Source: Tomitella fengzijianii (lineage in GTDB: Bacteria; Actinomycetota; Actinomycetes; Mycobacteriales; Mycobacteriaceae). From it: a stretch of DNA of 64,000 bases. The notes beneath the pieces were generated by a model. The model saw nothing but the letters and a program-made list of their open reading frames with translations. It searched no databases and was not told the DNA's origin. A program made the position numbers and the translations under genes. This document shows positions 56,903-58,258 of the stretch, one piece after another (position 1 is the stretch's first letter; every line of letters begins with the position of its first letter). The stretch spans positions 3,655,501 to 3,719,500 of the forward strand of contig NZ_CP041765.1 in NCBI RefSeq assembly GCF_007559025.1, in the 5' to 3' direction.

Positions 56903-56910
56903 GCTCGGTT

Positions 56911-56938
56911 CTCTTGCTGTGAGTCTCTTGCTGTGAGT
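56911..56938 (+). repeat. Perfect 14-bp tandem duplication
   Basis: CTCTTGCTGTGAGT occurs twice in a row just after the small CxxC gene. It probably arose by slippage. No function is evident. Confidence 0.8.
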
Positions 56939-56950
56939 CGGCGCCGCACA

Positions 56951-57017
56951 GTGCCGACCAAGCGTAATTCGCACATTTCCGGGCCGGAACCGGCATTTTC
57001 TTCTTGATCGGCGGGGC
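56951..57017 (+). repeat. 67-bp direct repeat, left copy (flanks map/XRE cassette)
   Basis: About four fifths of its positions match the copy at 58192-58258, in the same orientation, including CCAAGCG, CCGGCCGGAACC-like and CATTTTCT blocks and the end CGGCGGGGC. It lies between the 14-bp duplication and the map stop codon. The two copies enclose exactly the map and XRE genes. Confidence 0.7.
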
Positions 57018-57029
57018 TCAGACGCCGCC

Positions 57030-57800
57030 TCACTCCGCCCGGGCCGTCAGAACCAGCGGCTCGTCTTCGGTGACGGCGATGGTGTGCTCGCTGTGGGCGG
57101 TGCGTGAGCCGTCGGCCGAGCGGATGGTCCACCCGTCGGGGTCGTACACGATCCTGTCGGTGCCGCGGGCGAACCAGGGCTCGAGCGCCAGGGTGAGGCC
57201 CGGCCGCAAGACCATGCCGCGCCCGGCCCGCCCCCGGTTGGACACGTGCGGGTCCTCGTGCATGGTGCGCCCGAGCCCGTGCCCGCCGAACTCCGTGTTC
57301 ACCGGGTAGCCGTACTCGTCGGCGACGGCGCCGATGGCCGCGGAGACGTCGCCGAGCCGATTTCCGGCCTGCGCTGCAGCGATACCGGCGGCGAGCGCAT
57401 TCTCGGTGGCCTCGACGAGCCGCCGGTCCTCGGCGCGCGGCGTTCCGCCGATCACGCTGCGCGCCGAGTCCGCCACCCAGCCGCCGATCGAGACGGCGAT
57501 GTCCATGCTCAACAAGTCGCCGTCGCGCAGCGCGTAATCGTGCGGCAGACCGTGGAGCACAGCGTCGTTGACGGAAAGGCAGATGACGTTGCGGAACGGG
57601 CCGCGGCCGAACGACGGCGCGTAGTCCCAGTAGCAGGACTGCGCACCTCGTTCGGTGATCAGCGTGCGGGCACGGCGCTCCAGGTCCAGAAGGTTCACGC
57701 CCGCTTCCACGCGCGATTGCAGGTCGTCGAGCAGGCCCGCGATGAAGGAGCCGGTGACACGCATCGACTCGATCTCGCGGGCTGTCTTCAGTTCCACCAT
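57030..57800 (-). CDS. map: Methionine aminopeptidase type I, non-housekeeping copy
   Basis: A 256-residue type I methionine aminopeptidase, which removes the initiator Met from new proteins. All expected residues are present: His83, Asp100, Asp111, His174, Glu207 and Glu238. It lacks the N-terminal zinc-finger/SH3 extension. The ATG at 57800 was chosen because GGAGG lies 6 nt upstream. It is not in the usual secY-adk-map ribosomal cluster but diverges from an XRE regulator, so it is probably an extra, regulated copy. Confidence 0.93.
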   Translation of the reverse strand: MVELKTAREIESMRVTGSFIAGLLDDLQSRVEAGVNLLDLERRARTLITERGAQSCYWDYAPSFGRGPFRNVICLSVNDAVLHGLPHDYALRDGDLLSMDIAVSIGGWVADSARSVIGGTPRAEDRRLVEATENALAAGIAAAQAGNRLGDVSAAIGAVADEYGYPVNTEFGGHGLGRTMHEDPHVSNRGRAGRGMVLRPGLTLALEPWFARGTDRIVYDPDGWTIRSADGSRTAHSEHTIAVTEDEPLVLTARAE

Positions 57801-57822
57801 GTGCATCCTCCAAAGCCTCGCC

Positions 57823-57851
57823 ACCATAACGGTATATAAATACCAGACTAA
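57823..57851 (-). promoter_or_regulatory. map promoter with operator in the spacer
   Basis: On the minus strand TTAGTC (57846-57851) and TATGGT (57823-57828) are 17 bp apart. The inverted repeat GGTAT-ATAA-ATACC (57831-57844) lies within the spacer. The same GGTAT-N4-ATACC pattern recurs 31 bp away at 57862. Confidence 0.55.
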
Positions 57852-57861
57852 CTTCAGCGAC

Positions 57862-57889
57862 GGTATTTTCATACCGGTGGCGGTAGGAT
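57862..57889 (+). promoter_or_regulatory. XRE gene promoter with second operator
   Basis: GGTAT-TTTC-ATACC (57862-57875) is the second operator-like site. TAGGAT (57884-57889) lies 6 nt before the ATG at 57896 and fits a -10 box of a leaderless transcript. The two operators are 31 bp apart, close to three helical turns. Confidence 0.55.
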
Positions 57890-57895
57890 GTGCTC

Positions 57896-58162
57896 ATGGT
57901 GCGATCTCCCCTGACCCCGGAGCAGCGAGCGGCCGGCAAAAGGCTGGGCGCCCACCTGCGCGCAGCCCGCGGCGATCGTCGGCCGGACGAGGTGGCCCGT
58001 GCCGCAGCGATCTCACCGGAGACCCTCCGCAAGATCGAGACCGGCCGCCTGGCCACCCCGGCGTTCACGACCGTGGCCGCGCTCGCGTCGGTGCTGGGCA
58101 TTCCGCTGGACGAGCTCGCCGGCGTCGCGCTGCCGGCCCTTGGCCTGCAGCGCACCGGGTAG
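57896..58162 (+). CDS. XRE/Cro-type helix-turn-helix regulator
   Basis: An 88-residue protein that is almost entirely one HTH_3 domain: GKRLGAHLRAARGDRRPDEVARAA, ISPETLRKIETGR and a third-helix region ending LGIPLDEL. Such small proteins bind short inverted repeats as dimers. The two GGTAT-N4-ATACC sites in the divergent gap are its likely targets, controlling itself and map (inference). An earlier GTG two codons upstream is less likely given the -10 position. Confidence 0.88.
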   Translation: MVRSPLTPEQRAAGKRLGAHLRAARGDRRPDEVARAAAISPETLRKIETGRLATPAFTTVAALASVLGIPLDELAGVALPALGLQRTG

Positions 58163-58191
58163 CCGGAAGCGTAGCGATGCCGTACGGCGCA

Positions 58192-58258
58192 GCACCGGCC
58201 AAGCGGTTATTGCACACTCCCCGGCCGGAACCGACATTTTCTACTTGTTCGGCGGGGC
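58192..58258 (+). repeat. 67-bp direct repeat, right copy (flanks map/XRE cassette)
   Basis: This is the partner of the element at 56951-57017, in the same orientation, starting 29 nt after the XRE stop codon. The rest of the 263-bp gap to 58426 is GC-rich, with no gene that I can support. Confidence 0.7.

Follow-up and report, generated by a model that had tools for sequence, protein, structure and literature searches.

A conserved XRE regulator-methionine aminopeptidase gene pair as a candidate stand-by module for N-terminal processing in actinobacteria

Our analysis of a 64-kb stretch of Tomitella fengzijianii DNA (the whole of the sequence analyzed, hereafter the window) indicated that a methionine aminopeptidase (MetAP) gene, map, a divergent gene for a small XRE-type regulator, and the operators between them form a conserved module of actinobacteria. 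With a probability that we put at about 0.6, this module is an autorepressed stand-by MetAP that would be released when normal N-terminal processing fails. MetAP is pursued as an antibacterial target. According to two published accounts, the enzyme acts on 50-70% of new proteins (PMC3154147), and one of the two MetAPs of M. tuberculosis is essential (PMC6562599). If our reading is correct, many actinobacteria carry a dedicated, inducible spare MetAP, as would befit cells that expect the removal of N-terminal methionine to fail. The same reading predicts that tolerance to MetAP inhibitors includes a hidden layer, and it would make the operators a ready reporter for whether cells sense N-terminal processing. 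To our knowledge, no bacterial sensor of N-terminal processing is known.

RESULTS

The locus, its operators, and its predicted promoters

The map gene (57030-57800, minus strand) encodes a type I methionine aminopeptidase of 256 amino acids (aa), assigned by its fold and by matches to TIGR00500 (234.7 bits; curated cut-off, 171.35) and Peptidase_M24 (2e-38). The xre gene (57896-58162, plus strand) encodes a single-domain XRE/lambda-type repressor of 88 aa with the N-terminus MVRSPLTPEQ, recognized by HTH_31 (E 1.1e-10), a 2ofy profile, and Foldseek, with the HTH as the sole domain matched. These matches bear out the divergent arrangement described in the earlier note, which had taken the gene for a second map. 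Since the T. fengzijianii genome (4.01 Mb, 99.98% complete) has two other map genes, the products of which are 45% and 33% identical to the locus MetAP, the gene is in fact the third, and the case that it is the only map in the genome, which would have spoken against the proposal, does not apply.

Two perfect GGTAT-N4-ATACC sites, operator 1 (GGTATATAAATACC, 57831-57844) and operator 2 (GGTATTTTCATACC, 57862-57875), lie between the genes at a start-to-start distance of 31 bp, just as the earlier note had it. They were the only perfect sites in the window, and 100 shuffles contained none; sites with up to two mismatches (three in the window) were no more numerous than expected by chance (shuffle mean, 4.57). 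A search of the whole 4.01-Mb genome for perfect sites likewise returned these two and no others, and the reversed control pattern gave 0. Because both perfect sites of the genome sit at the xre-map locus, XRE looks dedicated to it, as far as such sites tell.

The sequence letters offer a predicted -10 element for each gene: TAGGAT (57884-57889, plus strand), 6 nt before the ATG of xre, and, for map, TAGTCT (57845-57850, minus strand), which abuts operator 1. A Shine-Dalgarno (SD) sequence of map, GGAGG, lies at 57807-57811 on the minus strand. Consensus scans for sigma-70 promoters and terminators found none. Relative to the predicted promoters, operator 1 spans the +1 of map and operator 2 overlaps both -35 regions, a layout for repression judging from the sequence, and one that agrees with the earlier claim that the sites stand in or next to the promoters. 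Both operators are conserved in relatives.

The predicted promoter of xre was shared almost throughout the 72 pairs used for promoter, residue, and distance comparisons (a duplicate, L051, was taken out). TANNNT ended 5-9 nt before the xre start in 71 of them (at 6 nt in 47 and at 7 nt in 24), whereas 500 shuffles gave 2.6 such pairs on average and never more than 8, and 14 of 19 further XREs had the motif at 6 or 7 nt. An SD-like motif preceded 66/72 map genes versus 8/72 xre genes. In M. tuberculosis, 73% of primary start sites have TANNNT as the -10 motif, centered 7-12 bp upstream (PMC3898074). The xre mRNA is predicted to be leaderless in the same 71 of 72 pairs, and the map mRNA would carry a ribosome-binding site. 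On the map side, the operator nearer to map is frequently preceded in relatives by TANNNT, at a distance of 0-7 nt.

Conservation of the pair and its operators

Relatives were searched for in 41 genomes, in which 30 MetAP loci were looked at. XRE was present at 20 of these, always divergent, and was missing at L024, L031, and L037-L044. Among contigs of GTDB genomes, at least 553 relatives were confirmed, and the best 80 of them were taken, a choice biased toward close relatives; XRE lay within 600 bp at 53 of these 80 loci and was divergent in all. The search for divergent xre-map pairs in other genomes proposed in the earlier note was therefore answered in both sets (20/30 loci, and 53/80 among the best 80 of at least 553), and the idea that the two genes act as a unit gained support, the more so as the neighbors were not shared. 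Among the 53 paired intergenic stretches from the best 80 of at least 553 relatives, 52 contained perfect operators (33 with two, 18 with one, and 1 with three) and 1 contained none; no perfect operator occurred elsewhere in these 53 loci.

Across the 72 pairs, 60 had at least one perfect operator and 12 lacked the consensus; some of the latter show variants by eye, such as GGGAT-N4-ATCCC. Where a single perfect site remained, it ended 0-38 nt before the map start (20/20 loci), and 7 of these loci had a one-off second site. Co-occurrence pointed in the same direction: MetAP at 200 bits or more was found with XRE in 20 of the 41 genomes, MetAP only in 2 (G026 and G034), XRE only in 1 (G015), and neither in 18 (Fisher p 1.7e-8, with the 200-bit line drawn post hoc). 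Distances between XREs and between MetAPs were correlated (Mantel r 0.763, against at most 0.262 in 2000 permutations), as expected for co-inheritance, a result that shared descent alone could also give. At locus L156, in the genome with XRE only (G015), an apparent remnant was observed, in which a short MetAP match lies next to a frame that resembles XRE but lacks the MVR start.

Two further classes of loci were found among the best 80 of at least 553 relatives. Operators at map with no adjacent XRE were present at 9/80 loci, and all nine genomes have one XRE elsewhere (E <= 1e-6). In two of them, both Williamsia, the distant XRE lies beside a second map encoding a ~47% identical MetAP; for the other seven, no map or perfect operator was found within flanks of 0.5-1.5 kb. 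No perfect operator was present at 18/80 loci of this best-80 set; XRE was absent (E <= 1e-6) from 12 of the 18 genomes and stood divergent beside a different MetAP in the other 6, 2 of which have perfect operators. The second XRE-MetAP pair of Williamsia (L127, L128) is diverged, and one repressor may serve both MetAPs there. In Amycolatopsis (L131, L129, L132), the xre promoter has no perfect operator and the distant map keeps its operators; to judge from these sequences, autoregulation may have been lost in this case.

The pair was also found in plasmid records. In a record from Tsukamurella that was deposited as a plasmid, xre and map share a strand and the operator is still directly before map, and a Streptomyces plasmid carries the usual divergent pair. 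Overall, 332 plasmid records matched MetAP, 327 of them at <60% identity, and XRE was looked for in two. No match to XRE was found in 50,697 phage records (E <= 1e-3).

The enzyme

Seven residues, D100, D111, H174, E207, E238, H83, and H181, which we take to be the five metal ligands and two catalytic histidines, were identical in all 72 pairs, the 9 operator-only loci, and the 18 operator-less loci. The structural model (pLDDT 94.4) matched the top three solved MetAPs (3tb5, 3tav, and 3mr1) with Foldseek TM-scores of 0.93-0.95. With the seven conserved residues, a TIGR00500 score above the cut-off, and a MetAP fold, the protein has the marks of type I MetAP, and it is predicted from sequence and model to be an active enzyme of this type. 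Following E207-P208, residue 209 is tryptophan in 68/72 pairs, 9/9 operator-only loci, and 18/18 operator-less loci and methionine in the 45% identical paralogue, the one copy that served as the housekeeping reference for this comparison. The E. coli equivalent of this position, M206, lines the pocket for the second residue of the substrate. A literature search on MetAP pocket residues among open-licence papers found no paper. An operator-less relative was the only MetAP found in Serinibacter G052 (E <= 1e-20; 1 of 18 genomes), and for this reason the enzyme type can probably serve as a housekeeper. The operator-less MetAP group could form a single clade (p-AU 0.69). At residue 2, the partner MetAPs had I in 45 cases, V in 19, L in 7, and T in 1.

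The repressor and its N-terminus

XRE matched the 2ofy profile at E 4.3e-38, and 2ofy was also its best structural match in Foldseek (TM-score, 0.82). HTH_31, the structure model, and Foldseek all assigned it an HTH fold, and no ligand or sensor domain was matched in it. Its N-terminus was nearly invariant over the 72 pairs: Val2 was found in 71 (codons GTG 19, GTT 21, and GTC 31), Arg3 in all 72 with six codons, and Pro5 and Leu6 in 71 each, with residue 4 being of 13 kinds. Because Val2 and Arg3 are fixed despite varied codons, the selection at this end acts on the protein. The MVR start recurred in 18 of the 19 additional XREs, with GTG as the start codon in one. In the model, which has five helices, residues 1-7 are extended before helix 1, and a DNA-contacting N-terminal arm would explain the invariant start.

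Valine is among the bulkiest second residues accepted by MetAPs. This background leads to a tentative elaboration of our reading, which we regard as rather unlikely, in which XRE is its own sensor, being a substrate of the MetAP it controls, with the processing of its Met-Val-Arg arm as the signal. The Met-Val-Arg N-terminus would form a DNA-binding arm; since Val2 is near the limit of MetAP acceptance, XRE would be among the earliest proteins to escape processing as MetAP activity falls; an arm retaining (formyl-)Met would bind the operators poorly, so that the spare MetAP would be made and, by processing XRE, would close the loop. The near-invariant Val2 and Arg3, the extended N-terminus of the model, and the lack of a matched sensor domain speak for this elaboration. 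Against it, L080 has Asn2, an ATG that may be the real start directly precedes the start used in L180, L182, and L183, and XREs lacking a nearby map begin in the same way; the invariance would likewise be expected of an arm that merely touches DNA.

Neighborhoods and flanking repeats

Among stop-to-stop frames of 150 aa or more, just one gene family, in five Nocardia, recurred in five or more of the 53 paired loci. When five neighbors from the window were tested at paired loci, only enoyl-CoA hydratase matched, two at 28-30% identity. As no neighbors recur, the kept unit is, by this comparison, xre-operators-map alone, and because the pair recurs across actinobacteria in unrelated neighborhoods, an inducible backup for an essential step is suggested. 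Within the genus, the pair was present in 3/5 sampled genomes, one of the two genomes without it being only 81% complete. In a MetAP tree used for taxon scatter (a quick tree with 32 open forks and long branches), sequences named Mycobacterium stood in several separate places, and this scatter suggests transfer.

The earlier note had also seen the unit as enclosed by a 67-bp direct repeat, taken to suggest that it moves or can be lost as a unit. Two direct copies do flank the pair, copy A 3' of map (56946-57017) and copy B 3' of xre (58187-58258), and the same two copies lie at the same places around the pair in the congeners G003 and G004. However, the copies are 72 nt long, only 79% identical ungapped (82% gapped), and belong to a dispersed family of imperfect palindromes. 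A covariance model built from nine copies (five from T. fengzijianii and two each from G003 and G004) gave 34 matches in the genome at E <= 0.1 counting both strands, which amount to 21 places including copies A and B, as places often match on both strands; 17 of these places had E <= 0.001. For this count, 150 of 1524 first-look candidates were scored, and 5 of the 21 places are model-building copies that match by construction. The repeat is thus dispersed in the genome, the kind of finding that the earlier note had itself named as refuting its proposal, and this dispersal rules out the direct repeats as cassette ends.

Movement of the unit by recombination between the two 72-nt copies is consequently the least probable of the explanations considered here. 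The flanking direct copies in the window, G003, and G004 speak for such movement, but their divergence, palindromic nature, and 21 genomic places argue against it. No empty site was found in the congeners G001 and G002; in G002, whose neighborhood is not shared, the YccF neighbor has no pair, repeat, or DadA neighbor within 1.5 kb, and G001 (81% complete) gave no YccF match. When folded as single strands, neither copy stood out clearly from 200 shuffles (z -1.57, with 15/200 shuffles as good, and z +0.20, with 114/200 as good). Further observations on the repeats concern their distribution: members of this family, imperfect palindromes of ~64 nt (GCCGACCAAGC...GCTTGGTCGGC), lie at, for example, 3355738-3355801, 3356465-3356528, and 3031736-3031791 of the 3.95-Mb contig, and 17 of the 21 places fall within 3.03-3.92 Mb. 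A perfect 14-nt tandem duplication, TCTCTTGCTGTGAG (56910-56937), lies directly before copy A.

DISCUSSION

A stand-by enzyme and its rivals

The mechanism that we favor would operate as follows. XRE, presumably as a dimer, would bind GGTAT-N4-ATACC and repress map strongly and itself moderately, because operator 2 covers both -35 regions and operator 1 the start of map. Insufficient removal of methionine by the ordinary MetAPs, which we infer could stem from an inhibitor, metal shortage, or enzyme loss, would cause repression to fall, and the cell would then make an active type I enzyme whose pocket differs. The earlier note had proposed a backup role for a regulated extra MetAP with paired operators, and the operators, their conservation, and the tie between XRE and MetAP support that proposal at the level of sequence. 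Counted against a stand-by role are the absence of a ligand domain in XRE, the 12/72 pairs lacking a perfect operator consensus, the genomes G026 and G034 with MetAP but no XRE, and the seven of nine distant XREs with no perfect operator or map in their flanks; in addition, the pairs may do no more than hold the dose low and constant.

This last point leads to the strongest competitor, which we consider possible and clearly less probable than the stand-by reading. It holds that XRE senses nothing and keeps the third MetAP low by autorepression at a set-point, the enzyme serving a subset of substrates. An 88-aa XRE in which the HTH domain alone was matched, operators at both promoters, and the contrast of W209 in 68/72 pairs with methionine in the 45% paralogue are all consistent with this explanation, yet the scattered occurrence (3/5 genus genomes) and the unrelated neighborhoods better fit a conditional benefit. 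The distinct residue at W209 could equally belong to an extra MetAP that resists a natural MetAP inhibitor and is induced by it, a form of target replacement that we judge slightly less probable again. The appearance of a pair on a Streptomyces plasmid and a transfer-like distribution would suit a resistance gene; on the other hand, no biosynthetic or other gene family recurs beside the pair apart from the one shared by five Nocardia, and the relatives without operators, all 18 of which also carry W209, look like ordinary MetAPs. We also know of no inhibitor that selects the xre-map pair, which we count against this explanation. Precedents for it do exist, namely ClpC2 in mycobacteria (PMC10030653) and, among duplicated targets in producers of inhibitors, a fumagillin cluster listed with a MetAP as resistant target (PMC10320164).

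The earlier note had further considered a toxin-antitoxin or defense pair with MetAP as the effector, a role that our results make very improbable. A small XRE next to an enzyme has the outward form of such a pair, the XRE weakly matches HTH_VI (E 1.2e-4) and capH (E 3.9e-4) models, and leaderless transcripts predominate in the toxin-antitoxin gene pairs of M. tuberculosis (32/37; PMC3898074). Nevertheless, the MetAP had no match in PADLOC (0 families) that would mark it as an anti-phage effector, the XRE matches are weak, and XRE was absent from the phage records searched. In 7/9 operator-only genomes, the flanks of XRE (0.5-1.5 kb) hold no map, and in G052 the search found no MetAP besides an operator-less relative, which speaks against a toxin.

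Comparison with known systems

Compared with known type I MetAPs (M24A; MapA/MapB of mycobacteria), the locus enzyme shares the fold, the catalytic residues, and a TIGR00500 score above the cut-off. It differs from 3tb5 and 3tav in a stretch near residues 57-68 that is about six residues longer, and from the genome's own copies (45% and 33% identity) in having its own repressor and operators and, relative to the 45% copy, W209 for M. The XRE belongs to the same small family as 2ofy, an XRE-family regulator of Rhodococcus sp. with the N-terminus MVRVPLT, the solved structure of which was deposited as a 'putative' regulator and is named in a paper on folding. With the DNA-binding domain of lambda repressor it shares a five-helix model and an extended N-terminus, with a weak match from residue 3 (E 0.16); unlike lambda repressor, it has no second, C-terminal domain, being 88 aa in all. 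In the portions of the open-licence literature covered, no account of an xre-map pair was found.

The fumagillin producer, in which a MetAP is described as the resistant target of its cluster (PMC10320164), resembles the module in its duplicated MetAP, whereas that cluster is fungal and biosynthetic and no cluster genes recur at xre-map loci. By analogy, the nearest working counterpart appears to be ClpC2, an autorepressed partial paralogue of an antibiotic target that has repeated palindromic operators over the -35/-10, is predicted to be leaderless, and is released by a natural antibiotic (PMC10030653). ClpC2 combines sensor, repressor, and protective protein in one, whereas repressor and enzyme are separate in xre-map. 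Collectively, the module is best regarded, with the same better-than-even confidence as the reading above, as a widely conserved, autorepressed spare copy of an essential enzyme.
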